Shown here: one piece after another, positions 28,101 through 61,002 of the stretch
Numbering within the stretch: position 1 is the first letter of the stretch
Layout of the letters: the number at the start of each line of letters is the position of its first letter
Virus record (IMG/VR): IMGVR_UViG_3300027708_000035
Span: 55,429 to 119,428 of that record
Strand: one strand, 5' to 3'
Length of the DNA: 64,000 bases
Source of the DNA: a virus
The notes under the pieces: model-generated
Seen by the model: only the letters and a program-made list of their open reading frames with translations
Database searches by the model: none
What the model was told of the DNA's origin: nothing
Position numbers and translations under genes: made by a program

Positions 28101-31100
28101 TTATATTCCATTATACGACATAATATATAGAGAACTAGGAACAATTCAACTGCTTGACACGTTGTGGGATTATACAAAGGGAAAATATCTATATGATGCA
28201 GCATCAATTGAAGAAACTCCGTATAATCAAATTCCTGATCAAGAACTGTACTATATTCTTTTAGCATTAAAAAATAATATTTTTATTAATGATTTAAAAG
28301 TTAATTGGAACTTATTCTTTTTTGCTGCGGTTAAATTTGCACTAACGGAACAAAAATTATTAGACTGGGCATTTAAAACTTCTTTTATTAATGTGTCAAA
28401 TAATATAGGATCACTGGATCAGCCGTCTGTTTATAAATTAAACAATGAATCTTACTTTGAAGAATATATAAAAGAAGTAAAACCTTATCATACCAAGATA
28501 CGTAGTTATACTTCAATATATAGTCATGTTGACGGTCAAACATCTGAAGGCTTTAACCTTAACATTACAGATTTTGATTTACCTGCATATGTTAATACTT
28601 TGACTAATTCTTTAACAACTGTCAATGTTGGCGATCCTATATTAATGAATTATCCATGGAAAAATTGGAACGATAATTATAAATTATTTGTTGGTTCAAT
28701 TGAAGTAGGATACACCGGATCGGGATATAGTGAAAGACCCACGGTCGTAATTACCACGGCTCCTGGAGATTCTGGATCAGGTGCCGAAGCTGAAGCGTAC
28801 ATTAGAAATGGAAAAGTTTATAAAGTAATTGTAACCAACCCAGGAAGCGGGTACACTGCTACTCCTCTTGCAACTATTGTAGGCGGTGGTTCTGTCATTG
28901 ATGTAGCAAGGGTATCTGTAATAATGGATAACATTAATACAAGAAAAAATCTTATTGGTATTAAGTTTGATAGAACTTCTTCATCGGGTGACTTAATCGA
29001 TCTAACAGTGACTGATGAATTTTTATGCGACGGAACAACCAACAAATTTACATTAACTTGGCTTGCTAGCCCGGATAAAAAAACAATTACACCTTTAGTA
29101 GATGGAAAATTGGTATATAGTGCTGATTATACAATTGAATATTATCAGATAAAAGTTGAAAAAGATGGTATCAATATTCCCGCAGCATTCCCTAGAAATT
29201 CCTGGGAAGGTGAAAGAATGATCGATCACCGATACAAATACTTTAATACTATTACGCCTAATAACTTGCCCGATAATATTAGACATTATGCCAAATTTGT
29301 ATTTTTAAATCAGATTCCTAATTTTGAACAAGTTTTTAAAATTACCTATAACAAAAATATTGACCTATATAATGCTGTAGATAGAATTAACAAAATGTAT
29401 AATCCCACAGATTTGATGCCAGGTAAAGAATTACCGTTGCTAATGGACGGCATTGAATATTCCGGAACACAAATCCAAGGATTAAAGTTTGAACAAACAC
29501 CTAACTGGGATAGCACTGGCACAGGGTTTGACTCTGCGCCCTGGGGAGATACTCTTAGTTCTTATACTAAAACACAATTACTCCAAGATTTATATTTCCC
29601 CACCCAGGCTTTTTCTGTAGCATCTATTGACGGAATTTTTCCAGGACAATCAATTGGATTTGCTGGTACCTCAACATATAATCAAATTTTTAAACCTGGA
29701 ACTGTAGTTACAGGTGTGAACCGTCCACTTCCAGAACGCAAAGATGGTATCGTGTATATAAGTACATTAGATCGAGTCGATACACAAATTTTTTATGCTT
29801 GGTCTACTGGTACCGCCAAAGGTTCTACTATAACTATAGAAACTAAAGATCCTTTCCGTACTGCAATTTCAAAAGGAGATCGAGTTAAAATTTACGGCGT
29901 AAACAGTCTTGCCGGATATGGAATTGAAACTATATACTTTGTTAGAGGAAGCAGACCTGTAGTTAATACCTACACAGATATTCCTTCAGTTTCAGTAATA
30001 ATTGCCCCTCCAGATTTTCCTGGCGGCATTCAAGCTACTGCTGTTCCGCTATTTGATGGAAATACTGCCACAATTATACAAGTTACCAACCCGGGAATGG
30101 GATATAGTATTCCTCCTAATATGTACCTGAGCGGCCCCCTTAAGTCGTATGGTAGCATTGCTGGTAGTTTGGACCCTGGATATAATCAATTTGCATATGT
30201 TGAAGCAGCTACAACTAATCAAATTCAATTTAAATCTCAATTTACTTTAAGCAGCACGGCAACTGTTCTCCCGCTCATGCCACTCAGTGGCCGTTTTCCA
30301 TATTTTGATCTATTAAGTGAAAATGTGAGCTATGTTAATAGCAAAAATAAATTAATTGATCACACAGTTACTACTTTTGATAGCAGTACACATTTGGTTG
30401 TAAATATCCTTGCTACTGTTGAGCAGACCGCCCGTGCTTCTGTGTATCTAAACTCTACTGAAGTATTGTCAACAAGTACTGATACAGTGTGGTATAGTGT
30501 AACAAATTCAGTTGACGGTTATAATAGATCAATTGTATCTGTACAAAATGCAACCGGTGCAATTTTATCTGGGACTGTAGATGTTAAATTATATGATTTT
30601 ACTGAAATAGAATTTTATAGTTATAATACTGAATATAGTAATTTAGATTCTTTAATTAGTGGTTCCTATATACAAGATAATTTTAATGGATACAAAGCAG
30701 AAGATATTAGAATTGATGGTAATAATTTCTTAAATGAAATAGATAGTCACGCACCAGAAGAATGTGTTCCAGGCTATGTAAGAGACTCTCTAGGAATTAA
30801 TGTCTATACTGTGGGAACTCCTTCTTCTCCGTTGGTACAATCTGGTGTGTTTACTGCAATTACTAATGTTCCTACTAGAGCCAAACTAACTTATGTTCCA
30901 GCAACTCCTGCTGGATTTTTAGTGTATGCAAATGGAATAACTTATACCAGAGTGGACAACGAAGGTGCATTTAGTTCATCTACTCAGTATGCTATTTTTG
31001 GAAATGAAATTATTGTTCCTGCACAACTGGCTATAACAAAAATTGGATATACTTTCATCACTGTGGGATCTGATGTTAAAATGGATAGTAGTTTTATAGC

Positions 31101-33159
31101 AGTTGACATTTCTACAATTGAAGGTACAGGCACTGCAATGGTATCTAGTTTATTGATGATAGACGATGTCAAGAGTGTTTATGTTCTTGCAAACGGACAT
31201 CCGGTTCCTCTACTCCTTCCAGGATATAATTATGGATATACTTTGGAACCAGTTAGCCTAGTTAACAATCGAGCTTCTGTAAAAATTTATGGATTAAATT
31301 CAGGATCTTATACATTCGAAGCATGGTTCTTTGATGCGGTATATCCTGTTTTTAACAGAGTATATGAACAATTTAATACAGTTTCTTCTTCTTCTTCTTC
31401 GATCACTAGTATGATACTAGCGATGCCTCCAACTATTATTGAACCACTAAGTGAAGAAATAATTGTTGAGAAAATAACTTCAACAGGAAGATACAGAATG
31501 CTTCCTCCGTGGGCGACTTACTATAAAATTCGATCTGGAATTACAACATTTGCAATTGATCCTAAAAACTCTCGTCCGAGCACATATAGTTTAGACAATG
31601 TCAAAGTATACCTAAATGGAAAAGAATTGCGTCCGGGATATGATTTCGCAGTTAATGTAATTAATGAAACTATAACAATCTTAGTACCAACAATCAGAAC
31701 TGGCGATGCTATTGCAATCACTCCAATGGTGGATTACGAATACACGGTTGCAGGCGATACATTGTATTTTTCATCGCCTATCTCTGATGCTACTATTAAG
31801 GTAACCACTTTTACCAATCACGATAATATGCTGATTAGAACAGAACGATTCAAAGGAAATTACTCTAGAAAATTTACATTAACACTTCCAGCAATCAATG
31901 AAAGCTATACATGGGTAACTGTTAACAACAAACCATTAATTGGTGGTTATGATTACATGTTACTCGATGATTATAAGACTATTGAATTGTCAGAATTTAT
32001 TGACGTGGGATTAACCGACGACATAGTGATAGTTACAGTAAATCCTCCGACCTTTGATGATAAAATTTTAGGATTTAGACTGTTCAATGATATGTTCAAT
32101 AGACAAGATTTTCACCGCATATCAAAATATTTTAGCACAGCTCTAACAGAGCCATTGACATATGATAGTGATAGAGTATTTGTTGAAGATGGAGACCACT
32201 TACTAGAACCTAATCCTGGATTAAACTTACCAGGTGTTGTTTATATCGATGGCGAGCGTATCGAATATTTGGAAAAAGATGGAAATGTGTTAAGTCAGTT
32301 GAGAAGAAGCACATTGGGCACAGGTCCTGCATTGTTCTCGGATATTGGTACAAAGGTTATCGATCAAAGTGTTAGGCAATCTATTCCTACAGTGTATCGT
32401 AATTTAGTACAACACATTCCTACGTCGACTGCTACTACATATATTATTAGTACAATAGGCAACACCGCTACTTTTTCAGTTAATACAACCACTAGCGTTG
32501 GAGCAGGAATTATACTATCCAACTTAGCTAATGCAGTTGATCAAGTTGAAGTTTATTATGGAGGACGCAGACTGAGAAAGACTTCTTTAGAAGTACATGA
32601 TAAATCTATATCTTATTATAATTCTCCAGAAAGTACAATAGTATATCCTCCAGAATTTAGTATTAATATGCCAAAGACTGTACTAGTTACTGAAATGGTA
32701 AATGGTGGCCATATACAGTATGGATCAGGTTGGGTGTTTCATGAAACTACAGAAACAATGAAGATACAACCGGGATGGATTATGCAGGATGCTAGCGGAC
32801 ACCGATATATAGTTGTTTATTCAGGACATAATGATCTATTTAATGGTTGGGGTGTTGGCTTTGCAGATGCAATTACTATAGCATGGCCATTAACTTTTAT
32901 TGAACCGACAAAAATTACATTAAATATTGCTGAAGAAATAAAAGCAGGTACAAGGATTACAATAGTACAAAGACAAGGCGAGTTCTGGGAAGATACTGCT
33001 TCGACTTCATTGTTATCAAGTACAGGAACACAGGCTACATTCTTACGTTTTAGAACAGCTGACTTACCTAATATATATTTCTATGGTGGAGATAACATGC
33101 TAACTGAAGAAAGCAATGCGCTAACAGACGAAAACGGAGAACCTTTACAAGGATATTAA
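19186..33159 (+). CDS. Giant virion protein at the gp7 position, with FG-GAP repeats
   Basis: A 4657-residue uninterrupted frame. The N-terminus (KSVNLLPEYIRTDKNSKFLS; DKLVNYTSYYWLPVGP) matches large baseplate wedge proteins that follow gp6 in aquatic T4-like phages, so it likely takes the place of gp7 and perhaps neighbouring wedge or fibre proteins. Residues about 1950-2410 contain FG-GAP-type repeats (FGSSIYAND...VSAPG; FGHSIYINQ; FGYDIAFSES; FGHSISISKD), expected to form a beta-propeller. Further on, five NPGSGY-type units and several V-x-L-N-G-K-x-L...DY domains recur. These are surface-binding style modules. Tail attachment or receptor contact is inferred. At 14 kb it is by far the largest gene here and fills over a fifth of the window. 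Confidence 0.75.
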   Translation: MADIKKSVNLLPEYIRTDKNSKFLSSTIDQLIQTPQVERVDGYIGSKITPNYRPAVDSYLEDSSPLRKNYSLEPAIVFKDQLGNITDAVAYNDLINELGIQGSKTNNLDTLLKSKFYSYDPLIDWDKLVNYTSYYWLPVGPTVIFLKSDNINDIIGSPSYIMSNGYPLSNGMKISISNVEYIVEGVGQSIKLIDFSLLTSSARIATGFDETFDSINFDNYPFDAGGDKRLPVEPDYITINRASKDLNPWSRYNRWFHRDIIEATANINNVPALYPLGARAKRPIVEFRPNLQLYNFGKVGNQNIDVIDNSVRDAFVEVDGSPGFYVDGTLLQKGNRVIFNADLNDAVRGRIFEIDINSAGEIPLLRLIPAADAIPSDHNSISINSGNEFYGTSWYFDATNIKWIYAQQHDKVNQPPLFDLFTADGTSFTKSLEINNFTGTKLFGYELGTVYDKVLKFSLKYQNSIGLGSYLFKNYFMTDTISVISNNASTTISAAVTYLKLDNELINVWVEASDYQIPIIEIQTIAEQTNTLTLTCLDKPIVTTDLTVEVYKNGKKLSSIISATSAEITITTDTLYINDVIVIKVFTTQQPNLNGYYETPIGLTNNPLNGTFSSMTLSELGDHLSSMVSKIPAYTGSNLRDLVNYTKNGTRLIVNANPISFAQIFLGKKEHNLVDAIRQAGDHYSQFKMNFLRSLIAIDNQASPIDAVDSILTNLNRAKDIKSMYQRSDMLGYGQNKTVRTFTVRDINNVEYPIGFEFDLTRLSFKAVNVYLNNVQQSYGVDYTFSYINGSVIFLTDLLVNDVISINCYPNTLGSYVPPTPSKLGLYPATVPEIYTDTSYVVPTLCIKGHDGSIIKAYGDYRDAIILEFEQRIFNNIKVQYNSKLFDIIAIQPGAFRNTKYSVEDLNSILISDFSRWAGINNVDVKTNSTFDSGNSKTWNFKGSIDKWFNSEVTGTSKNLFRYFYDTQRPDIRPWEMLGLTTKPIWWENIYGPAPYTSANTVMWSDIELGYNASTGTFDTNYVRQGLSNIIPVDALGNLKSPELFLVSASNYQDKLASWKFGDMGPAENAWRNSSAWPFALISTAALLDPTNFCSTLYDTSRTTINPLGQVTYTTTGLYLDPRKLVIEGDADSMIAGYGSYVIEKGNQKDQNYINVLKQDLTYLESNLFHKLGGFASKEKLQITIDSIDPASTSPGVVLPPEDYSLILNVSNPIKTARISGIIVQRSNGNFVIKGYDVANPYFKIFNPISNAATGAVKVGGVSEEFSDWSNVVNNGNSGLSSVDLTSASGPTTRYYKQGQLIRYGNKFYRVKVGHVAESTFDPTLYVPLPGLPIVGGAEAKLASSFEKTITQIPYGTELSTVQEVYNIIVGYGAYLEAEGFIFDEFSTDLNEMLNWKFTGKEFLYWTTQNWAENNLITLSPFANYIKYSFPNSVADDINSSKYEYSLLKADGKPYPINSFTMSREDTVCIIKTTDPNEGLFFATINSVQKEHAMVFKNYTMFNDIIYDVETGYKQQRIKLSGFRTKNWNGDLFSPGFVFDNVKIIDWSASGTYLPGTVVRYNGRYYEALAKVSASPTFNFTEWDQLASKPIPQLLPNFDYKINQFEDFYSLDIDNFDFGQQRLAQHLTGYTPRTYLDNIFTNSISQYKFYQGFIKDKGTKNALDKLSKAAQNTNKGNITFKEEWAFRVGQYGSYNSFNEIEFPLTEGTALENPYIVKFTDSIPTVTAPLVNYVTSASLLLTPNNYVPSNTFDSYKGTWEDNNLKLTTAGYVRLDDITSTAYNKNSLLDIANNHILKEGDTIWLGFLENGDWTVYRYVKQLAEITGVYVSAPGSEITFVTDSYHNLTAGDIVSIVRFNQQVNGVYVVTSISELNQFTVSSTLTTIENAELLNYGSLFTFSSARYNNLDELSTITDLLKLNSGDKVWIDTGIDGKWQVYEKIKNYSPTVNAASTASLGQQFGSSIYANDNSDVMLVSAPGWRLENAFNWGRIKVYNKINNVWSRQYDYILNSSSKQYCSSTSSTQFGYSLQYDINKKLYIAGAPDATFVRSTTIGTGTVILSTGSGEIKSFVKEGLVKINSRDEEFGVINVDLVLVNPYGTTADTAANSRFGHSIYINQVSTGSTTMLVSAPGTASFNGPGSVYAYKITAITNTITNVTTATVKGFTLTNTVPLVVSTSSISLSAGNQWGYKVAGTLNGTTIAISAPGYFTSTGVVQLFDINLTHTQTINSPFGVNSKFGYDIAFSESKKYLLISAPETKSTNDPYGKVVIYTLTNGMYVLNQIISNPLPTNDLKFGHSISISKDELTIAISALGKNRSKKQVYDASINVGQTTFDGDSTKFFESVEDAGTVYVYNKIGNYFIQADELNDTVILKGSRYGNSVVATNHEVIIGAPTSQQYSASPLISDESKLYIFNKIDITSGSWKILREQEDTVDVSSINRVALIDTLKEEIVNYLDVVDPVKGKIAGIAEQELKYKAAFDPATYSIGLASTIVNNETNWLDEHIGDLWWDLSTAKYMWYEQGNEIFRKNNWGRMFPGATIDVYEWVKSDMLPSEWAAVADTNNGLTKGISGQPKYPDNSIISVKQVFNNVTGSFENVYYFWVKNKLTLPNNNRRLSSYQVASYIADPTANGLKFIEIISPNAVAFANVQSMLVGNRINASISTDANSIIPKHTEWLLLNEGDHTNVPNTLLEKKLFDSLLGHDSLGNVVPSTNLTYRNRYGIGIRPQQTFFKDRLAALRNLISFINSVFVKNRIVGNYSFENLNKKEELPALYSYEYDQIVEDLDALNEIYTVRYVQAELECYAENGKVKNVIITNPGFGYSIAPKINIISSSLTPAEITTTIDTQGRVISVTIINPGSGYTDINVQTTVRPHTVIVQTNSDINGKWSKHTFDYVFRTWIKTQTQKYDTTKFWTAVDWVSSEFDSYKSLTYTISNLSELGSLTSITDGEYVKVKNIGDGRYAILKKVNGLGNYIPLYDIIYRELGTIQLLDTLWDYTKGKYLYDAASIEETPYNQIPDQELYYILLALKNNIFINDLKVNWNLFFFAAVKFALTEQKLLDWAFKTSFINVSNNIGSLDQPSVYKLNNESYFEEYIKEVKPYHTKIRSYTSIYSHVDGQTSEGFNLNITDFDLPAYVNTLTNSLTTVNVGDPILMNYPWKNWNDNYKLFVGSIEVGYTGSGYSERPTVVITTAPGDSGSGAEAEAYIRNGKVYKVIVTNPGSGYTATPLATIVGGGSVIDVARVSVIMDNINTRKNLIGIKFDRTSSSGDLIDLTVTDEFLCDGTTNKFTLTWLASPDKKTITPLVDGKLVYSADYTIEYYQIKVEKDGINIPAAFPRNSWEGERMIDHRYKYFNTITPNNLPDNIRHYAKFVFLNQIPNFEQVFKITYNKNIDLYNAVDRINKMYNPTDLMPGKELPLLMDGIEYSGTQIQGLKFEQTPNWDSTGTGFDSAPWGDTLSSYTKTQLLQDLYFPTQAFSVASIDGIFPGQSIGFAGTSTYNQIFKPGTVVTGVNRPLPERKDGIVYISTLDRVDTQIFYAWSTGTAKGSTITIETKDPFRTAISKGDRVKIYGVNSLAGYGIETIYFVRGSRPVVNTYTDIPSVSVIIAPPDFPGGIQATAVPLFDGNTATIIQVTNPGMGYSIPPNMYLSGPLKSYGSIAGSLDPGYNQFAYVEAATTNQIQFKSQFTLSSTATVLPLMPLSGRFPYFDLLSENVSYVNSKNKLIDHTVTTFDSSTHLVVNILATVEQTARASVYLNSTEVLSTSTDTVWYSVTNSVDGYNRSIVSVQNATGAILSGTVDVKLYDFTEIEFYSYNTEYSNLDSLISGSYIQDNFNGYKAEDIRIDGNNFLNEIDSHAPEECVPGYVRDSLGINVYTVGTPSSPLVQSGVFTAITNVPTRAKLTYVPATPAGFLVYANGITYTRVDNEGAFSSSTQYAIFGNEIIVPAQLAITKIGYTFITVGSDVKMDSSFIAVDISTIEGTGTAMVSSLLMIDDVKSVYVLANGHPVPLLLPGYNYGYTLEPVSLVNNRASVKIYGLNSGSYTFEAWFFDAVYPVFNRVYEQFNTVSSSSSSITSMILAMPPTIIEPLSEEIIVEKITSTGRYRMLPPWATYYKIRSGITTFAIDPKNSRPSTYSLDNVKVYLNGKELRPGYDFAVNVINETITILVPTIRTGDAIAITPMVDYEYTVAGDTLYFSSPISDATIKVTTFTNHDNMLIRTERFKGNYSRKFTLTLPAINESYTWVTVNNKPLIGGYDYMLLDDYKTIELSEFIDVGLTDDIVIVTVNPPTFDDKILGFRLFNDMFNRQDFHRISKYFSTALTEPLTYDSDRVFVEDGDHLLEPNPGLNLPGVVYIDGERIEYLEKDGNVLSQLRRSTLGTGPALFSDIGTKVIDQSVRQSIPTVYRNLVQHIPTSTATTYIISTIGNTATFSVNTTTSVGAGIILSNLANAVDQVEVYYGGRRLRKTSLEVHDKSISYYNSPESTIVYPPEFSINMPKTVLVTEMVNGGHIQYGSGWVFHETTETMKIQPGWIMQDASGHRYIVVYSGHNDLFNGWGVGFADAITIAWPLTFIEPTKITLNIAEEIKAGTRITIVQRQGEFWEDTASTSLLSSTGTQATFLRFRTADLPNIYFYGGDNMLTEESNALTDENGEPLQGY
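25030..26400 (+). repeat. FG-GAP repeat region coding a predicted beta-propeller
   Basis: At least six repeats of about 60-70 residues inside the giant protein, each with an F/W-G-x-S or F-G-H-S start and an (V/I)-SAPG end: FGSSIYAND with LVSAPGW, FGHSIYI with LVSAPGT, WGYKVAG with ISAPGY, FGYDIAF with ISAPET, FGHSISI with ISALGK, YGNSVVA with IGAPTS. This is the integrin-alpha FG-GAP pattern; six or seven blades would close a propeller. Confidence 0.7.
27610..30130 (+). repeat. Repeated NPGSGY beta-motifs in giant protein
   Basis: Five copies of a short unit, (V/I)-x-(V/I)-T-N-P-G-x-G-Y followed by a Pro and beta strand: TNPGFGYSIAPKI (about 27630), INPGSGYTDI (about 27750), GYTGSGYSERPTVVI (about 28710), TNPGSGYTATPLATI (about 28835) and TNPGMGYSIPPNMYL (about 30085). 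Some occur in pairs. The motif recurs in other phage structural proteins; its function is unknown to me. Confidence 0.65.
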
Positions 33160-34013: not shown

Positions 34014-35675
34014 ATGGAAACTTGCGAATATGTTGTAACTTTACACAAGCATGAGGACTTAGACTCATTCTATGAGGATATGGAAACTCCTGGTGGAAAT
34101 TTATATATTCCTGATAGAGCAGTCGAAGTTTTCAATAGACGACCAGTTAGCAGAAATACACATTATTTGTTAACTGAAGAAGAAGCCAATCAGATTAGAC
34201 ATGATCCTAGGGTTCTAGAAGTCGATCTATCAATTAAAGAACAGGGATTAATTTTAAGTCCAAGCTGGACAGAAGTAAGTATATACTGGAATAAATCCAA
34301 TTCAGTTGCAGATAATTACAAAAATTGGGGATTATTAAGATCAGTCGAGGGAGCAACTCGACCTAGTTGGGGATCTAACGGTGCTGTGTCATCAGTCACT
34401 GGAGAAATTAATGTAACTGCTAGCGGTAAAAATGTAGATGTTGTCATAGTAGACGGGCATATGAATCCTAATCACCCCGAGTTTGCAGTCAATAATGATG
34501 GTACAGGAGGATCTAGAGTAGTTCAGTATAATTGGTTCAATTTAAATCCTACAGTTACTGGAGGATCTGCGGGTACATATATCTATACTCCCTATGTTGA
34601 TCCAACTTATCCCGATACTAATGGAGATGGATATTCAGACAGAACAACCGATAACGATCACGGAACACACGTTGCTGGAATTACAGCAGGCAATACACAA
34701 GGTTGGGCCCATGATGCTAATATATATAATATAAGTCCGTATGCAAGCAGTCCTAGTGCATCTACAATTTATTTCATCGACTACGTCAAAGTGTGGCATC
34801 AAAATAAATTGCCCAACCCAATAACTGGTATTAAAAATCCAACCGTTACAAATCACAGTTACGGATTAACTGGAAAAGTTGCAATTACTTCAATTACTTC
34901 TGTTAGAATAAATGGAACAATTATAAATGGTCCATTTACAAGTTTGCAATTAAGTAACTACGGAATATACAATACTGGTGGTTATGCGTATCCTTCAGTA
35001 AGGAATACTTCAATAGAACAAGATTTAATTGATCTTATGGCCGCCGGAGTAATAGTTGTAGGCGCCGCCGGAAATCAGTTTAGCAAGGTAAGCAATTACA
35101 GCGCAACTGTTACTGATGATTACAATAATTATTTTGCCGTTGGGTCCTTTATATATTATTATTTGCGTGGATCAATTACAGCAGTACTTGGTGCAATTTG
35201 CGTAGGATGTGTCGGATCAACTGTTAATGAAGCTAAGGCATCGTTTAGTAACTGCGGCCCTAGGGTAGATCTTTATGCTCCCGGTAGTTATATAATGAGT
35301 TCTGTAAATTCAACCATTAACGCATTCTCAAATGATGTTAGAAATACTGCGTATTATATTTCTAAAAAATCTGGAACATCCATGGCTAGTCCTCAGGTCG
35401 CAGGTGTGGTTGCCTGCGTTGCTGAAACCTGGCCTACAATGAAACAAAGTCAAATATCTACATATATACAATCCCACTCTACAAAAAATCAAATTACAGC
35501 AGGAACTGGCGGCGCAACTGATTATACCGATCTTCAAGGATCGGAAAATAGATATCTCTATTTTTATAAAGAACGCCAAATTTTTGGACAAATTGGACCT
35601 AAAATAAATTTAGGCAATCGACCTACCCAAGGACAGACTTGGCCTAGACCTAAGATTTACCGTTATGGAAGATAA
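34014..35675 (+). CDS. Subtilisin-like serine protease (S8) in the structural operon
   Basis: A 553-residue subtilase with every catalytic element: Asp147 in VVIVDGHM, His216 in DNDHGTHVAGITAG, oxyanion Asn354 in GAAGNQ and Ser456 in SGTSMASPQVAG. Residues 1-72 (CEYVVTLHKHEDLDSFY, ending DPRVLEVDLS) look like an inhibitor I9 propeptide. There is no signal peptide. It lies 1 nt after a fibre gene in the tail and fibre operon, which suggests a virion component or an assembly protease, possibly cutting neighbouring large proteins or host surface proteins. The C-terminal 50 residues (GPKINLGNRPTQGQTWPRPK) are outside the protease fold and may anchor it to the particle. Confidence 0.9.
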   Translation: METCEYVVTLHKHEDLDSFYEDMETPGGNLYIPDRAVEVFNRRPVSRNTHYLLTEEEANQIRHDPRVLEVDLSIKEQGLILSPSWTEVSIYWNKSNSVADNYKNWGLLRSVEGATRPSWGSNGAVSSVTGEINVTASGKNVDVVIVDGHMNPNHPEFAVNNDGTGGSRVVQYNWFNLNPTVTGGSAGTYIYTPYVDPTYPDTNGDGYSDRTTDNDHGTHVAGITAGNTQGWAHDANIYNISPYASSPSASTIYFIDYVKVWHQNKLPNPITGIKNPTVTNHSYGLTGKVAITSITSVRINGTIINGPFTSLQLSNYGIYNTGGYAYPSVRNTSIEQDLIDLMAAGVIVVGAAGNQFSKVSNYSATVTDDYNNYFAVGSFIYYYLRGSITAVLGAICVGCVGSTVNEAKASFSNCGPRVDLYAPGSYIMSSVNSTINAFSNDVRNTAYYISKKSGTSMASPQVAGVVACVAETWPTMKQSQISTYIQSHSTKNQITAGTGGATDYTDLQGSENRYLYFYKERQIFGQIGPKINLGNRPTQGQTWPRPKIYRYGR

Positions 35676-47957: not shown

Positions 47958-48821
47958 TTAAGTACCCCACTCATTCTTAAACAACGGCACCTGCAAGCGA
48001 TCACTATAACGGAGACCGTGTTTCATTGCAGCCAATGCAACTGTTTTATTATTTAGGCTGTATACACTTTCAACACCGCCAACTGGCATTAGATATACAT
48101 TGCCTTTAAATCCAGCATCGCGATATTGTTGCATTGCCTTTAATGCATCTTCAATGTCTTGTTCTGTTGCTACAACAAATTTAAGGTATGCGTGTCCAAC
48201 ATCCTCATATGCTAATACCACTTCTGGCTTAATGGCATCCTCCCACGGCTCACCACTAGACGGCAGTTTAGCACTGATAGAGAATGTAAGTGCATCCTTA
48301 CCTCTGGACTTACTGCCCAATGTCCAATTAAGTAGATATTGTCTAAAGTCTTTGGTCAGTCGCATTGTACCGTTGGTCTCAAAAGTAATTTCTTTTAAGT
48401 TCTGCATACAAGGTTGATCTAGCAATTCTGGATATGCACGTTGCCAACCTAACAAGGGCTCTCCACCTGTAATAACCAAATGTTCATCACGCCATTCACC
48501 AAATGGCAATATGCCTACAATGTTCTTTGCAAGTCCGTCGACTTCTACCATCGGACTTAATTCTTTAAAGTCTGGATGCCAGCTTGCATAACTGTCGCAA
48601 CCTGTGCCTACTAGTGGTAGTTCTTTATAGTCTTTAAATGGATGCATGGCATGCATCACTGCAACTTTGTCTGCTTCTGTGCTTAGTTCACCTCGCGGCA
48701 TACCAAACCCCCGACAGGTAAAGTTGCAGCCGTATGTTCTTAGAAACACACTAGGGACGCCCATAAAACGTCCTTCTCCTTGAATGGAGTAAAATAATTC
48801 GGATACTTTAATTTTGCTCAT
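47958..48821 (-). CDS. queE: QueE, 7-carboxy-7-deazaguanine synthase (radical SAM)
   Basis: A 287-residue radical-SAM enzyme of the QueE family (FYSIQGEGRFMGVPSVFLRT, LVITGGEPLLGWQ, ITFETNGTMRL). QueE rearranges carboxytetrahydropterin to 7-carboxy-7-deazaguanine, a precursor of preQ0. The cluster motif is unusual: Cys32 and Cys36 (CNFTC) are followed not by Cys two residues on but by an insertion, and CDSYASW with Cys75 matches the canonical C-D-T of QueE. In this phage the product most likely feeds the TGT-like DNA-modifying enzyme at 54407 rather than tRNA. It leads a long minus-strand operon with its own promoter. Confidence 0.9.
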   Translation of the reverse strand: MSKIKVSELFYSIQGEGRFMGVPSVFLRTYGCNFTCRGFGMPRGELSTEADKVAVMHAMHPFKDYKELPLVGTGCDSYASWHPDFKELSPMVEVDGLAKNIVGILPFGEWRDEHLVITGGEPLLGWQRAYPELLDQPCMQNLKEITFETNGTMRLTKDFRQYLLNWTLGSKSRGKDALTFSISAKLPSSGEPWEDAIKPEVVLAYEDVGHAYLKFVVATEQDIEDALKAMQQYRDAGFKGNVYLMPVGGVESVYSLNNKTVALAAMKHGLRYSDRLQVPLFKNEWGT

Positions 48822-51643: not shown

Positions 51644-52459
51644 ATGGGTCATAACAACTTTATCGTCAATAAGTATCATCGTTGGTATTACAACATTATC
51701 AATCATCGTATTAGTAATGCTCCTTCTGGATATTTTGAAAAACATCATATACTTCCAAAATGTTTAGGCGGATCTAATGCTCAAAATAATCTTGTTTCAC
51801 TAACTGCTCGAGAACATTATATATGCCACTTACTGTTAGTAAGGATGACTTCTGGAGTATTTAGGTCTAAAATGATTAGAGCCGTTGATGCTTTTAAGAT
51901 GGCAAAACCTGGAACTCAACGGAATCTAACAGCCCGACAATATCAGACTATTAGGGAACTAACTATTGGTCTGCCAAACTCAATGAGTTGTCCCAAAGTT
52001 AAAGCCAAGCATTTAGATTCTATAGCACAGAAAATTGGTTATGATGATCACCAAACTTATGTTGCTACTATTAAATCATTGTTTGAAATATATAAGACTG
52101 TTAAAACTACTGCCGAAAAAACCGGCCATGCACAATATACTATACGGCATTTACTTATTAATAACTTTGGAAAAGATTGGGTAGAGTCTGTTAGGCAGGC
52201 AGGATTAAAAGAAGGAAAAATTAAATCTATAGAATCTAATCGTAGACGCCCTAAACGAGATTCATTTGCCGAACAAAACTATAATGCCTATGTATGGGAA
52301 GCAACATCGCCGACTGGCAATATTATTATAGTAAAAGGCAATCGAATTGAGTTTTGTAAAACACAGGGAATAGGAACATCACTTGATATAACGAAGCCCC
52401 ATTTAAGGGGCTTCTGGGAGTTTAAGAAACTGTGTAAGGTAAAAGATTGCCGAGCATAA
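51644..52459 (+). CDS. HNH homing endonuclease
   Basis: A 271-residue protein. The N-terminal HNH domain is FEKHHILPKCLGGSNAQNNL followed by LTAREHYICHLLL, with the paired His and Asn that bind metal. The remainder contains a helix-turn-helix-like stretch (TTAEKTGHAQYTIRHLL) and a C-terminal region typical of phage homing enzymes with a DNA-binding module. It sits on the opposite strand to its neighbours, as expected of an inserted mobile gene. The last codons hold a perfect hairpin (52393-52414). The start overlaps a late-promoter-like motif by only 5 nt. Confidence 0.82.
   Translation: MGHNNFIVNKYHRWYYNIINHRISNAPSGYFEKHHILPKCLGGSNAQNNLVSLTAREHYICHLLLVRMTSGVFRSKMIRAVDAFKMAKPGTQRNLTARQYQTIRELTIGLPNSMSCPKVKAKHLDSIAQKIGYDDHQTYVATIKSLFEIYKTVKTTAEKTGHAQYTIRHLLINNFGKDWVESVRQAGLKEGKIKSIESNRRRPKRDSFAEQNYNAYVWEATSPTGNIIIVKGNRIEFCKTQGIGTSLDITKPHLRGFWEFKKLCKVKDCRA
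52393..52414. other. Perfect hairpin at the 3' end of the HNH gene
   Basis: GAAGCCCC (52393-52400), loop ATTTAA, GGGGCTTC (52407-52414). It lies inside the coding sequence near the stop. No U-tract follows. Confidence 0.5.
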
Positions 52460-54406: not shown

Positions 54407-56038
54407 TTATTCTCCTAAACTGCCTTCTTCTAATGCTCGTAATTGATCATCATCTGGATTTTCTAAATCGACTTCTTCAGACTTGGTGACTTCTTCAAAA
54501 CTAAACAATGAACCGAATGTGTTCTGTTTTGGACCACCTTGTAATCGAGCACCTTCCAAACTACGCAAGAATGGGCTAGCTTGTTCGATTAATTCAAATG
54601 CTTCCGATTTAGTCTTTGTATTAAACAGATCTTCAATTAGGCTACTGAAGTATAGAATATTTCGAGGAACCCAATCACTATACTCATCACTCATATCAGA
54701 ACCTTTGACCTTCTTCCAATGCTTCCAAGATAGTCGACCTTTAACTTTGGCAATTTCAATGTCCATTAATTGTTGAGCACGTTGTACAGCAACAATGTGA
54801 CATTCAACATTATGACCCATCATTAGAGCATAGGCAAAACTATCCCATGATGTTTTGTTTGGAATCTTACCTAATTTGTTTAAGCGAGGAACAACATGAT
54901 AGTGATCTGGATTTAAGTGATCAAACTTAACACTACCTAATTCTTTATCAGTTTTACGTTCGCCTAGATTATAATAGGCAATGTCTGTCATTGTCAGTCT
55001 TCGACCAATTGACGATTCGAAGGGGAACGGGATATCGCTTCCTGACAGTGCTTTGTTGTCTGGGGCTTTGTCCATAATAACACTCCACCTTTTTGGCGTG
55101 TGCTGTGCGTTGGTGTAGACAAGTCCGTGCGCGGTTGCGATAAACGGTGAGGCGCAGTCAAAAGATATGGTAATTTCTTCATTGATGTGTTTCCTGATTT
55201 GTCTTTGGATTAATGTTAAGTAGCAACTCCAGTCAAGTTGCGCTGTACCCAAGAAGTGGATCCAGTTTTTGCCCTTCAGCAAACCATCTTCTCTCAATGT
55301 CATTAAACGCTTGAGAGTAATATCCATTTTACACATGTTGGCACCACCAAAGGCCCAACCTTCTGCTTCGCGCCCTGCATACTTGCCTTTAGGGTCGCTA
55401 AATTCTTTTACACCGTCATACCACTTCTCGGCAGTCTCCCAATCACCGCCTTGTAGAACGTTGAGCCATTTGGTCTGTCCTAAACGATTCATTAGGAAGT
55501 AATCATTATTAAAACGTGTCTTGTCTAAGCAGTCCTCAAATGTTTTCAATCCTGTTTTAGGACTGTGAATATGATCGCAAGCCCATGTTGGAACGTCCAG
55601 CATCATAGACCAGTCGGCAGTCACTTCCAACCACTCTAGAATCTTTTGACGAGTCTTTGTAGCTTCCTTGCCTTCAAAGTCTAACCAATCAAATTTAAGA
55701 ACACCCTTACCGATCTGGTATCCACCGGAGTCACCTAGAATCATTGTGTTGTTGCGATCACGTTGTTGGATCATGGATTCTTGTACAAGACTCTTTTGTA
55801 GATCCAACTGTGCGTGACCTGCTGAATACAAACCATATTTGTAGGTAAAGTATCCCTGTTCAGGATTTAGAAAGTTCATACCTTCGATTCCGCGATCAAA
55901 TCCAGCGGGAATACGATCGTCGGCAATGAACTTTTCTAAACGCTGTTTAGCAATATAGGTGCTGTAGAACGAGCTGATGGCCGGAAGATATACAGCATAA
56001 TCCTTCTGTAGTGGGGTTAGGTTAACTTGTTGTGTCAT
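54407..56038 (-). CDS. dpdA: TGT-like DNA guanine transglycosylase (DpdA type) with clamp-binding-like peptide
   Basis: A 543-residue homologue of tRNA-guanine transglycosylase. Motifs in order: LGDSGGYQI with Asp103 (general base of the TGT family), VLQGGDW (194-200), WAFGGANM, HFLGTAQ and ISFDCASPF with Asp294, aligned with the TGT nucleophile motif FDC-x-x-P. The zinc cysteines of tRNA enzymes are not evident. Phage DpdA proteins of this family exchange guanine in DNA for a 7-deazaguanine; QueE is encoded in this window. Residues 506-514, NTFGSLFSF, are identical to the C-terminus of the DNA polymerase (881-889), suggesting binding to the sliding clamp. The gene starts 2 nt after the clamp gene. 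About 29 acidic residues follow the peptide. Confidence 0.85.
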   Translation of the reverse strand: MTQQVNLTPLQKDYAVYLPAISSFYSTYIAKQRLEKFIADDRIPAGFDRGIEGMNFLNPEQGYFTYKYGLYSAGHAQLDLQKSLVQESMIQQRDRNNTMILGDSGGYQIGKGVLKFDWLDFEGKEATKTRQKILEWLEVTADWSMMLDVPTWACDHIHSPKTGLKTFEDCLDKTRFNNDYFLMNRLGQTKWLNVLQGGDWETAEKWYDGVKEFSDPKGKYAGREAEGWAFGGANMCKMDITLKRLMTLREDGLLKGKNWIHFLGTAQLDWSCYLTLIQRQIRKHINEEITISFDCASPFIATAHGLVYTNAQHTPKRWSVIMDKAPDNKALSGSDIPFPFESSIGRRLTMTDIAYYNLGERKTDKELGSVKFDHLNPDHYHVVPRLNKLGKIPNKTSWDSFAYALMMGHNVECHIVAVQRAQQLMDIEIAKVKGRLSWKHWKKVKGSDMSDEYSDWVPRNILYFSSLIEDLFNTKTKSEAFELIEQASPFLRSLEGARLQGGPKQNTFGSLFSFEEVTKSEEVDLENPDDDQLRALEEGSLGE

Positions 56039-56040
56039 TA

Positions 56041-56775
56041 TTATGTCTGTGCAGGAATGATGTACTTGTAAGTAGCAATGCCGCTGTCTAATGTAATTTG
56101 CAATGCACCTTCATTAGACAAGCTCATTGTTGTGTTATTAACATCTGCAATTTTCAAGATGCTCAAGATGGGAGCAACTGGCCAAGTCCAACCTTTGTTT
56201 AAGTTGCCTGTGACACCTGTGGCAAAGATAAACTCACCACCGTGGCTGCTAGCATCACCAAAAGTAAATTTCAACTTGTCGCCGTCTGTCTTAGCAAGGA
56301 AAGTTGCGTGTTCGCTGTTAGCTGCCGCTTGGAAACTAAAACGCTGTACGCTACTTTGTGTAGGAATAACTTCAACATCCCACTTAACACCACGGAACTT
56401 GGTAGTCTTAAGTTTTTCGTTGATGATTTCACTATTCATAAAACGGTAATCGTTCTTAAAGTCGCCTGCCGCATTTTCAAAGTGAAGACCAACTGGAATA
56501 GTTTCACCGTTGCGATCAGCAGTCATCAACTCAATCTTAGCGTCCTCTTTGTATTCAGGACATTCCAAATTGTATTTCAATTTGTTGAGTTGTGGCATGC
56601 CAAACACACCGACCATCTCTGGCTGTGGATTAGTTGCCTCTCCGAACATAACAACAGTTCTGTCGTCTGCCATTGAGTCAATTTTTGTAGAACTTTCGTC
56701 GCCTGTAATTTTTACAATGTTCAGGAAGCCTAGGTTGTGAGTATGACTCACGATGTCTTGTAAGATGTCTTTCAT
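56041..56775 (-). CDS. 45: gp45 sliding clamp
   Basis: A 244-residue protein between polymerase and the TGT-like gene. It has the two-domain beta pattern of PCNA-type clamps: GVFGMPQLNKLKYNLECPEY in the first half and, at the end, GWTWPVAPILSILKI, TTMSLSNEGALQITLDSGIA and the terminal YKYIIPA strand. T4 gp45 is 228 residues. The clamp holds polymerase on DNA and, in T4, activates late transcription. Sequence similarity to T4 gp45 is low, so the call rests on pattern, length and operon position. Confidence 0.75.
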   Translation of the reverse strand: MKDILQDIVSHTHNLGFLNIVKITGDESSTKIDSMADDRTVVMFGEATNPQPEMVGVFGMPQLNKLKYNLECPEYKEDAKIELMTADRNGETIPVGLHFENAAGDFKNDYRFMNSEIINEKLKTTKFRGVKWDVEVIPTQSSVQRFSFQAAANSEHATFLAKTDGDKLKFTFGDASSHGGEFIFATGVTGNLNKGWTWPVAPILSILKIADVNNTTMSLSNEGALQITLDSGIATYKYIIPAQT

Positions 56776-56830
56776 GTTAATATCCTTTTGTATAGTTTAT
56801 TTAGATTTAGGTAGTTTGTCAACAAATATT

Positions 56831-59503
56831 TTAGTCAAAGCTGAACAAACTGCCGAACGTGTTATTTTGTGTCGTGGATTCTAAGTCCCATTCCAACACA
56901 CCGATTAAGTTATCAAGTTTATTATTGATAATTGTAGTTTCCATTTCTGAATGATCGAATGGCAGATCTTGGAACCATTTAGGCAATCGCATCTCATCTA
57001 CTGGATATGCAATACTGGTATAACCTAATGGATTGTCTTTGACTTTACAGACAATGACCTTCATACCATCAACAATGCCCATGCTGTACTTGTCGCCATT
57101 CATACGTTTGAGCGTATTCCAATTGATGCTGGCACGGACATGTCCTGGCATATTGGCCTTGCCTTGTTTTTCTTCTTTCTTTTGATACTCAGCAATGTTG
57201 TTGGCACGTTTTGGACTGCCTTTTTCCCAACCAGGTCTTGCCTTAAACTCAGTTCTAAATTCTGTAATCATTTCGAGAATTTCTTCTTCTTGAGCATTAT
57301 TTAGAACTTTGGTTAATACTTCTTCCAAAAACTTTTGCATAAATTCTGGAGTATCACTGCGTTTCAAATCTAATCCCATGGCCTTGATCTTACCGGGCTT
57401 ACCGTTTACATCTTGTCTCTTACCATCTTTATCGTAATACAATACAGCATAACGTTTCTTGGTAATAAACAGGCCTTTGATAGCAACAATTTCACGACCA
57501 CCTTTAATAACCTCACCTCTACTCTTAGGGCAGTGAAAAGCATCTAACATAAAGTCTGGAAAAGTTGCATTGACATTGTCTGCAATGGTATCATACAACT
57601 GCACTACAACATCTTTGTCCCAAGGAATCAATTTCTTTTGGATATCAGTCTTTAGTGTATTGTATGCAGAGAAATAACATGAGTCAGTATCACCGTAGAT
57701 AATACTTTTACCAACGTGATCAAACTCGCCAGTAATCATTTCATTTACTTTGCCTGCCATGTGTTTGGCAATTTGCCTACCGACTAGAGTGGTTGATTGT
57801 CCGATACGTTTGTCGAAGAATCGGCAACCAGCGTTAAGAATAGCACCGTACAAACTGTTCAGGTTAATTTTCTTAACCAACTGACGTTTGTCCCAATACT
57901 CTTCTTCAATCTTATTGCCAGCGTCGATACAGGCCTTTAGTTTTTTCTGCATGTCCTTACGTTCGGCATACCAACGCTTTAGCAAGCCCGGAATAATACC
58001 TTCATGCTCGTAGGTAAAGATTGTACCATTGGCACTGAGCATCCATGGTTGATTGCTTTCGAATATTAGTCTATAACATTCGGCTGCACTCATAATATCA
58101 CTTTCACCGTTTTCCCAGTCGATGGTAATTTCCCAGGCTTTATCTCGCCGCATGACTGCTTCGTACTCAAGGCTACCAAATATGCCTTCCCAAGCTGCCG
58201 CAAAAGACTTCTTATGCACCAACATCTGCTCTTGGATGTATTGGTCTGTTCTGTCCTGTCTCAACTGTCCAACAATAGTCTCTGGACCCATGTTTAGGGC
58301 ACGAATTGCACTTGGATATAGTGAGTTAATGTCAATAGATCCGATCCAGTCATGAAGACCTTTTTTAGGATATGCAACATAAGCACCTGCGGCTTGATTG
58401 TTTGCTTCCTCATCACGCTTGGCACGATTGGGAACAATTAAACCACGATGATGTGCTTCATTTACAATGGCCTGTTCGGTCACAGCCACAGCACCCATTG
58501 TAGTTTGTAGCAATACAGTACATTCGTGTGCCAGTGTGTTGGCTAGATCTAAGAACTTTAATTTCTTATCTAGCTTGTCCAACAATGCAGTATCCTGCCT
58601 GTTGTATTCGATAAACTTACGGAAATCATTATTGTAAAGTTGATCCAATGTACCTTCGTACTGCGTCTTGGTCTCCCCTACCTCCATTTCTCCAATGGCA
58701 TCCAGCCTGTAGGTATGGCGTTCTTCGTATGTATATTTGCGGTACAGCTCGAGACTGTCCAGATGAACACGACCAACCAGGTCATAAGTAACAGCCGCTT
58801 TTCCATACTTTTCGTACTCCCTCTTCTTAGGAAATTGACCCCATAGACAAAATCTTCGAGTGTCTTCTTTACTTAGTGCTTTAGTGACACGATTAACGGT
58901 GTATGGAATATCATAACCTTCACTATTCCATCCACTTAGGATATCCGCATCTTGGATAATATCCAAAAATGCATCTAACATTTCTGCTTCAGTTTCGAAC
59001 AGTATTGTATTGGGAAAATCCTTAATCAATTCTTGTGCCTGTGCCATGGTCAATGTCTTTGGCGGTACTGCAAAACAAACCAATGTGTCTAACCATTGTA
59101 GGTGAACTGCGATACTGGTAATTGGCATGAAAGCATCTTCGGGAGTGCTATAGCCACGTTCTGGATCAAAGTCCACCTCAATGTCGAAAAACGCTACATT
59201 TAGTTTTGGCGGTTCGTGATTGAGATAGTTTTCCTCAAGCGTCTTGAATACCGTGTTAATATCGGATTCATATAACTTGTGATTGCTGTGGATTCGTTGT
59301 TCTTTCTGGAAGTCTTTAAAACTTCTTGTGACAACTTTGTTTAGGTTTTCACCATAGATTGATTTATATTTGCCCCGTTGATCCGGGTAATAAAACGTGT
59401 ATCTTGCAGGGAACTCCTGAAAGATTCTGCCTTTCTTTGGATCTCGCTCAACGACATGTACAATGTCCTTATCGCGATCCCACATGGCATCGACATAGCT
59501 CAT
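56831..59503 (-). CDS. 43: gp43 DNA polymerase, family B
   Basis: An 890-residue replicative polymerase. The 3'-5' exonuclease motifs are FFDIEVD (residues 105-111), SGWNSEGYDIPY (about 190-201) and the YNRQDTALL region (about 298-306). The polymerase motifs are DINSLYPSAIRALNMGP (A), KINLNSLYGAILNAG (B) and YGDTDSCYFS (C). Length matches T4 gp43 (898). The C-terminus NTFGSLFSFD plays the role of the clamp-binding peptide of RB69/T4 polymerase (ends in SLF...F). AGGAGG precedes the ATG at 59503. No split or intron is present. Confidence 0.98.
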   Translation of the reverse strand: MSYVDAMWDRDKDIVHVVERDPKKGRIFQEFPARYTFYYPDQRGKYKSIYGENLNKVVTRSFKDFQKEQRIHSNHKLYESDINTVFKTLEENYLNHEPPKLNVAFFDIEVDFDPERGYSTPEDAFMPITSIAVHLQWLDTLVCFAVPPKTLTMAQAQELIKDFPNTILFETEAEMLDAFLDIIQDADILSGWNSEGYDIPYTVNRVTKALSKEDTRRFCLWGQFPKKREYEKYGKAAVTYDLVGRVHLDSLELYRKYTYEERHTYRLDAIGEMEVGETKTQYEGTLDQLYNNDFRKFIEYNRQDTALLDKLDKKLKFLDLANTLAHECTVLLQTTMGAVAVTEQAIVNEAHHRGLIVPNRAKRDEEANNQAAGAYVAYPKKGLHDWIGSIDINSLYPSAIRALNMGPETIVGQLRQDRTDQYIQEQMLVHKKSFAAAWEGIFGSLEYEAVMRRDKAWEITIDWENGESDIMSAAECYRLIFESNQPWMLSANGTIFTYEHEGIIPGLLKRWYAERKDMQKKLKACIDAGNKIEEEYWDKRQLVKKINLNSLYGAILNAGCRFFDKRIGQSTTLVGRQIAKHMAGKVNEMITGEFDHVGKSIIYGDTDSCYFSAYNTLKTDIQKKLIPWDKDVVVQLYDTIADNVNATFPDFMLDAFHCPKSRGEVIKGGREIVAIKGLFITKKRYAVLYYDKDGKRQDVNGKPGKIKAMGLDLKRSDTPEFMQKFLEEVLTKVLNNAQEEEILEMITEFRTEFKARPGWEKGSPKRANNIAEYQKKEEKQGKANMPGHVRASINWNTLKRMNGDKYSMGIVDGMKVIVCKVKDNPLGYTSIAYPVDEMRLPKWFQDLPFDHSEMETTIINNKLDNLIGVLEWDLESTTQNNTFGSLFSFD

Positions 59504-60270: not shown

Positions 60271-61002
60271 ATGATTACTTATCTCTATGTAAAGACCCAC
60301 ACAATAACTGGGCTTAAATACCTTGGCAAAACTGTAGCAAAAGATCCGCATAAGTATCCTGGATCTGGCAAGTATTGGAAACTACATCTAAAGAAGCACG
60401 GTAAACACTATACTACAGAAATACTCAAAGAATGTCAATATCCGGCAATGGTTGAATATTGGGGAAAATACTATAGTAACCTATGGAATATTGTAGATAG
60501 TGATGAGTGGGCAAATTTAAAACCCGAAGTAGGGGACGGTGGTGGATTACCTGTTGGGCATATTTTATCCGATGCTACTAAACAAAAAATTGGAGACGCA
60601 AATAGAGGAAGAAAAATGTCTAATGAATTTTGTAAAATGCGTTCAGAAAATCAGAAAGGCAAAATTCCGTGGAATAAAGGTACAACAGGCGTTCAGATAG
60701 GAGCGAACCGTGGTAGAAAGTTTGGTACTCCTAGCGAAGAATATCGTGCAAATATGTCTAAAATTCTTAAAGGTAAACCAAAACCTCCCCGCACTAGACA
60801 ACATTGTGAAAATATTTCTAAATCAAAGTTAGGACATAGCCATCCCCAATCAGATGATTCTAAATTAAAGATTGGTAATGCAAACAAAGGCCGCCGCCGA
60901 ATGCATAATGACGAACTAGGAATACCTATTAAAATGGTTCCTGCTGATAAAATATCAGAATTTTTGTTAAACGGATGGAAGTTTAACAGAGAAATTCCTT
61001 AA
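60271..61002 (+). CDS. GIY-YIG homing endonuclease with NUMOD3 repeats
   Basis: A 243-residue protein. The N-terminal GIY-YIG-type domain shows ITYLYVKTHTITGLKYLGKT, KYPGSGKYWKLHLKKHG and EILKE. After it come repeated NUMOD3 DNA-binding modules (LSDATKQKIGDANRGRKMS; PSEEYRANMSKILKGKPK; DDSKLKIGNANKGRR), the standard architecture of Seg-type mobile endonucleases. It lies on the plus strand between the minus-strand dsbA and superoxide dismutase genes, as expected of an inserted homing gene. It ends exactly where the convergent dismutase gene stops. Confidence 0.88.
   Translation: MITYLYVKTHTITGLKYLGKTVAKDPHKYPGSGKYWKLHLKKHGKHYTTEILKECQYPAMVEYWGKYYSNLWNIVDSDEWANLKPEVGDGGGLPVGHILSDATKQKIGDANRGRKMSNEFCKMRSENQKGKIPWNKGTTGVQIGANRGRKFGTPSEEYRANMSKILKGKPKPPRTRQHCENISKSKLGHSHPQSDDSKLKIGNANKGRRRMHNDELGIPIKMVPADKISEFLLNGWKFNREIP

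Follow-up and report, generated by a model that had tools for sequence, protein, structure and literature searches.

Why does a protein that folds like a base-exchange enzyme carry in its tail the peptide that ends the DNA polymerase of the same phage? The question arises in a 64,000-nucleotide stretch of viral DNA (hereafter the window; positions 55,429 to 119,428 of IMG/VR record IMGVR_UViG_3300027708_000035), within a virus record of 119,428 bases whose contig is a fragment. Here, genes for a family B DNA polymerase, a clamp-like protein and a 543-residue protein resembling tRNA-guanine transglycosylases (TGT) and phage base exchangers of the DpdA type lie together (Table 1). The clamp-like gene stands between the other two, 2 nucleotides from the TGT-like gene, as a preliminary description of the locus had reported. 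That description did not give the strand; the minus strand carries all three, and the order of transcription is therefore polymerase, clamp, TGT-like protein. The reading favoured here, at a probability of about 0.8, is that this phage DpdA is a DNA base exchanger tethered to the clamp through a polymerase-type peptide.

The shared peptide and the enzyme that carries it

Both proteins contain the peptide NTFGSLFSF, which in the polymerase is separated from the stop codon by a single Asp. Over the nine codons, seven of 27 nucleotides differ between the two genes, and one Ser is encoded by TCA in one gene and AGT in the other. Both points had been made in the preliminary description and were reproduced. 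Its conclusion that selection keeps the peptide does not follow from the codons alone: the synonymous differences argue against recent copying of the peptide, but they do not in themselves prove selection. Copying between the neighbouring genes by gene conversion or duplication, with no function for the peptide in DpdA, would suit their proximity and the nine identical residues in this phage. It is hardly credible given the seven nucleotide differences, the non-identical peptides of relatives (exact nine-residue identity between polymerase and DpdA occurs in one of 203 phage pairs) and the conservation of the motif at different positions and in DpdA2, whose gene is unlinked; gene conversion was rejected as the origin on the codons and the relatives. 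The same count implies that the identity seen here is partly luck, and exact identity was dropped as evidence. Across the full 119,428-base contig, a profile of polymerase tails reached 19 bits near a C-terminus in two proteins only, the polymerase and the TGT-like protein.

The 543-residue protein has no sequence match in Pfam, PHROGs or PDB, and structure was therefore used for its identification. An AlphaFold2 model built with 63 relatives reached a predicted local distance difference test (pLDDT) score of 88.7 and a predicted template modelling (pTM) score of 0.86. Eight of its nine Foldseek matches in PDB at E <= 0.001 are TGTs (among them 1q2r, 1j2b, 1wkd, 1pud and QTRT1; E 7e-7 to 8e-4, probability 1.0), the ninth being the designed enzyme 6fhf (E 7.6e-4). 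Judged by this model, the protein belongs to the TGT/DpdA superfamily and has a TGT-type (beta/alpha)8 fold. Both catalytic-type Asp motifs of TGT/DpdA (DSGG[FY]Q and FD..P) are present, with D103 and D294 invariant in the 63 relatives; from the motifs, we take these to correspond to the two catalytic Asp residues of TGT. The 244-residue protein falls in a PHROG annotated as of unknown function. However, the clamp part of a fusion model of its relative L037 matches PCNA chains (E 2e-10; TM score normalized by target at most 0.70), which identifies the 244-residue protein as a sliding clamp. Outside its folded core the TGT-like protein has a predicted disordered tail bearing the peptide, followed by an acidic helical element. 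This element (NPDDDxLRALEE) terminates the DpdA tail in most relatives.

The phage enzymes DpdA and DpdA2, from 9g, CAjan and nt-1, insert 7-deazaguanines into phage DNA (Hutinet 2019, PMC6884629). The window's enzyme shares with them a TGT fold and, at the level of the family, folE, queD and queE encoded alongside. It differs in being sequence-divergent, with no Pfam or PHROG match, and its base-exchange activity is putative. The structural matches are themselves tRNA enzymes and the window's subfamily has no known activity, which would suit a protein that acts on tRNA and whose tail is unconnected to DNA modification. We consider this very improbable in view of the clamp-type tail, the gene order with polymerase and clamp, and the linkage to phage folE, queD and queE. 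A profile comparison (hhalign) also aligns the window's DpdA family with DpdA2 over the TGT core (E 2.6e-6, 88.6% probability), and the DpdA2 of nt-1 accompanies deazaguanine in virion DNA, where about 0.1% of Gs are dPreQ0 (PMC6884629).

Conservation and co-variation of the motif across DpdA families

To assess the tail beyond this phage, DpdA proteins were grouped at 80% identity into 36 clusters and their C-terminal 75 residues were scored with the polymerase-tail profile. DpdA tails exceeded the 99% shuffle level (10.4 bits) in 17 of the 36, compared with none of 281 other open reading frames (ORFs) of the same loci, the highest of which scored 7.6. The pattern [FYM]xx[LF]F occurs within the last 50 residues in 74% of 148 distinct DpdA tails and in 2% of shuffles. 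At the level of sequence, the conserved feature is a looser motif, [F/L]xx[LF]F, and not the exact nonapeptide. It lies about 30 residues before the C-terminus in most members of the window's family and right at the C-terminal end in L084, L091, L092, L160, L189 and L221; one clade reads SLFVEV, retaining LF only.

The motif tracks the polymerase tail of the same phage, LF occurring with LF and FF with FF. Polymerases ending in FFEF or a similar sequence are found in four of the 80% clusters (L090, L091, L124 and L218), and the DpdA motif is FF in all four; elsewhere both proteins have LF or a close form. At 65% identity, FF is confined to two of 18 clusters, both concordant, an outcome expected by chance once in 153 before any correction for descent. 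Individual pairs illustrate the resemblance (tails are written up to the stop codon): NNTDLFDW in the polymerase and NNNDLFGW in the DpdA of Vibrio phage 2.275.O, a terminal HFDSLFGW and an internal FNSLFDV in PA5oct, and TFNDLFTF and VEGLF in Phosso, whose DpdA gene is unlinked. In Vibrio phage 2.275.O, the ORF after DpdA (NVP2275O_469; L084:11735-12847) starts with MFNELFDF, a clamp-motif-like N-terminus, and is weakly amidoligase-like (phrog_2443, E 0.022); its sequence makes it a possible second candidate clamp client in the same pathway.

The preliminary description had proposed that DpdA homologues in T4-like phages be searched for tails matching the polymerase, and such tails were found in DpdA2. 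Its gene is not beside that of the polymerase in these phages, yet the endings are alike: SLESLFG in the polymerase and SLEELFG in the DpdA2 of X1, SLDDLFE and TLDELFE in ACP17, SLEDLFGW and SLDDLFG in Moby, and TLDDFFS and SLDSFFD in BUCT-ZZ01. T4 gp43 itself ends in KASLDFLFG, its SLDFLFG resembling the SLDDLFG of DpdA2. The DpdA2 of KVP40 and that of Vibrio 1.081 have lost the C-terminal motif, and an internal insert that is absent from nt-1 bears DLSAFFG, to be set against the polymerase tail TLESFFG of KVP40. The LF or FF label also agrees in nine further IMG/VR pairs, and in two others the tails deviate together (LLDFG and NTLDF in the polymerase, SLELEF and NILDL in DpdA2). Wherever both proteins of a DpdA2 pair have a motif, they agree (15 of 15 pairs, 10 LF and 5 FF, with one MF counted as LF). 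The LF/FF label requires several changes on the DpdA2 tree, the deep branches of which are weakly supported. The motif is C-terminal in 38 of 42 distinct IMG/VR DpdA2 sequences, and 40 of 426 ORFs of at least 200 residues in DpdA2 loci give C-terminal matches, nearly all of them DpdA2 or polymerase. Separately, ORFs in L259-L338 that look like neither DpdA nor polymerase end in KLTGLEDFFG, VNTLESLFA and ISFDDIF; by these ends they would be candidates for further clamp clients.

A comparable arrangement is seen in the 9g-type DpdA1 proteins, which end in LQDLFDE (9g), VMELF (Seurat), IQELF (Iggy and R7M), IMELF (K4PH164), EQRLF (RHEph05) and QPGLF (Vibrio 1.207). These LF endings resemble the bacterial clamp motif QL(S/D)LF (PMC9690074). 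In 9g, Seurat, Iggy, R7M, K4PH164 and RHEph05, the dpdA1 gene either adjoins the clamp gene or is parted from it by at most two small ORFs; in Vibrio 1.207 it adjoins an unnamed gene at the clamp gene's position. The polymerase tail of 9g does not match that of its DpdA1, and the DpdA of mycobacteriophage Hilltopfarm, which is not encoded beside the clamp gene, ends in GQDV and has no motif. DpdA1 may thus be treated as a lead to a third group of clamp-tethered DpdA.

Proposed tethering to the clamp and competing explanations

According to the favoured reading, a transglycosylase of TGT/DpdA fold would replace guanines of the phage DNA with a 7-deazaguanine, and the peptide in its predicted disordered tail would dock in the pocket of the clamp where the polymerase of the same phage binds. 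The enzyme would be kept in this way on clamp-loaded DNA, that is, phage DNA being replicated, and bases would be exchanged there. The comparisons above give good support to a clamp-binding tail in the TGT-like protein; physical binding to the clamp, DNA rather than tRNA as the substrate, the timing with replication and the identity of the base are what we infer in addition. The tethering proposed in the preliminary description has gained comparative support that extends to DpdA2 and probably to DpdA1, but the argument from exact identity on which it was built is weak. The broader proposition that tethering is general, has been repeatedly re-made in phage DpdA (the window's family, DpdA2, and DpdA1 with endings such as IQELF) and sets the share of DNA modified divides our judgement evenly.

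Use of one motif by several clients is established for gp45-type clamps, as the similar C-terminal clamp motifs of T4 gp43, gp55 and gp33 are interchangeable (PMC2988020). In these T4 and RB69 proteins, as in DpdA, a short hydrophobic-acidic peptide is carried on a flexible linker. However, they are a polymerase and transcription factors with a C-terminal peptide, whereas that of the window's DpdA family usually lies about 30 residues before the C-terminus. Because gp55 and gp33 work on DNA-bound clamps in late transcription with interchangeable motifs (PMC2988020), the tail could instead serve as a general DNA-tracking toolbelt, with DpdA acting on clamps left on finished DNA in a clamp-dependent but not replication-coupled manner. 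Gene order beside polymerase and clamp suggests co-expression with the replisome, though it is no proof of action at the fork, and we regard action on residual clamps as a serious but less favoured possibility. With respect to the peptide it is a sub-case of clamp tethering, from which it differs in timing.

Several observations weigh against tethering. DpdA2 of nt-1 and pf16 has no motif while the polymerase keeps it, and a good motif is missing from the DpdA of L034, L046, L180, L203 and L213, with the polymerase retaining it in L034, L046 and L180. Homologues without the peptide beside motif-bearing polymerases, which the preliminary description had named as evidence that would speak against it, therefore exist, but they are a minority (nt-1, pf16, L034, L046 and L180). 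The co-variation derives partly from shared descent. On the contig of the window, a fragment, queE is present and folE, queD and queC were not found. A 2026 study reports that clamp binding of T4 alpha-glucosyltransferase is not the main determinant of its modification share (PMC13216743), which implies that a clamp tether need not control the outcome of modification. Finally, an AlphaFold2 model of a natural clamp-DpdA read-through in L037 (stops read as Ser, giving a 72-residue junk linker) folded both domains and left the peptide undocked, with pLDDT below 50 in region 817-849. No positive control accompanied this model, its alignment was shallow, and gp45-type clamps are trimers.

The undocked peptide would also fit a motif that serves some other interaction of DpdA, such as dimerisation, contact with its own barrel or binding of another replisome protein, its likeness to the polymerase tail being that of short hydrophobic motifs only; TGTs are mentioned to act as dimers (PMC6884629). 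Against this, the peptide is predicted to be disordered in the monomer, LF/FF switches and deviations in two DpdA subfamilies go along with those of the polymerase tail, and the position of the motif moves. An interaction of this kind is unlikely, and tethering to the clamp remains the preferred account.

A clamp-tethered DNA-modifying enzyme is, as such, already known. T4 alpha-glucosyltransferase was reported to bind gp45 (Sommer 2004, as cited in PMC13216743), and the gp45 pull-down has been repeated (PMC13216743). Like the proposed DpdA, it is a phage DNA-modifying enzyme on a phage clamp for which coupling to replication has been proposed; unlike DpdA, it glucosylates hydroxymethylcytosine and has an unrelated fold. 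Inspection of its sequence showed no T4-type C-terminal clamp motif and just an internal FYQMFDF. In eukaryotes, the base-modifying enzyme DNMT1 has a motif that binds the clamp PCNA and is thought to target it to newly replicated DNA (PMC9690074), although it is a methyltransferase that differs from phage DpdA in motif and chemistry. No report of a clamp-bound DpdA was found in the literature searched, the coverage of which excludes most subscription papers, and the word clamp has no occurrence in the 2019 DpdA paper (PMC6884629). The earlier statement that no DpdA recruited in this way had been described is consistent with that search, but it missed the precedent of T4 alpha-glucosyltransferase and gp45.

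If the tether is real, it would direct the enzyme to phage DNA under replication with no need for a sequence motif, and timing and occupancy would be open to test by deletion of a few residues. KVP40, with its motif-bearing insert, and nt-1, with no insert and dPreQ0 at about 0.1% of Gs, provide a natural comparison. DNA modification would then join the standard clients of phage clamps, alongside T4 alpha-glucosyltransferase and eukaryotic DNMT1.

Precursor genes, likely inserted base and other features of the locus

Precursor genes are common in the large relatives (n = 15), with folE in 13 of 15, queD in 10 of 15 and queE in 15 of 15. Full queC was found only in Vibrio 2.275, with weak partial QueC-like matches in G002, G003, G005 and G009. 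The pathway therefore probably stops at 7-carboxy-7-deazaguanine in most large relatives, and this compound or a derivative is the likely inserted base, as judged from gene content. In the E. coli phage CAjan, by comparison, about 32% of Gs are dPreQ0, and a CRISPR-made dpdA knockout exists (PMC6884629).

Table 1. Features of the polymerase-clamp-DpdA locus and the QueE gene, in window positions
Feature	Position	Strand	Basis
Family B DNA polymerase, 890 residues	56831..59503	-	PF00136 E 5.5e-39, PF03104, phrog_262
Sliding clamp, PCNA/gp45 superfamily, 244 residues	56041..56775	-	phrog_12062 E 8e-39; Foldseek PCNA matches via L037 relative
TGT/DpdA-type base-exchange enzyme (assigned from fold), 543 residues	54407..56038	-	AlphaFold2 and Foldseek fold match
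QueE homologue (7-carboxy-7-deazaguanine synthase family), precursor supply	47958..48821	-	phrog_2076 E 4.7e-51
Asp103 in GDSGGYQ, counterpart of TGT's first catalytic Asp (putative role, by analogy with TGT)	55730..55732	-	Invariant, 63 sequences
Asp294 in SFDCASP, counterpart of the nucleophilic Asp of TGT (putative role, by analogy with TGT)	55157..55159	-	Invariant, 63 sequences
Clamp-binding-like peptide NTFGSLFSF, TGT-like protein residues 506-514	54497..54523	-	Sequence
Clamp-binding-like peptide NTFGSLFSF, then Asp and stop, polymerase residues 881-889 of 890	56837..56863	-	Position equivalent to T4 gp43 tail
Predicted disordered tail bearing the peptide, residues 498-530	54449..54547	-	pLDDT below 50 at 498-509 and 511-530
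Further conserved element of the tail, acidic and helical, residues 531-540, NPDDDxLRALEE	54419..54448	-	Alignment; helix in AlphaFold2 model

The close spacing of clamp and DpdA genes in the window is not universal, about 345 bp separating them in many relatives. Two plus-strand ORFs (60271-61002 and 51644-52459) appear by eye to be homing endonuclease-like, of GIY-YIG and HNH types, and an Fe/Mn superoxide dismutase gene is present in this phage at 61003-61542 (PF02777, E 8.5e-22). Further away, an ORF at 34014-35675 contains subtilisin-like motifs (DNDHGTHVAG and SGTSMASPQVAG, by eye) amid structural-looking genes, and an ORF at 19186-33159 encodes a giant protein of 4,657 residues that is presumably structural.

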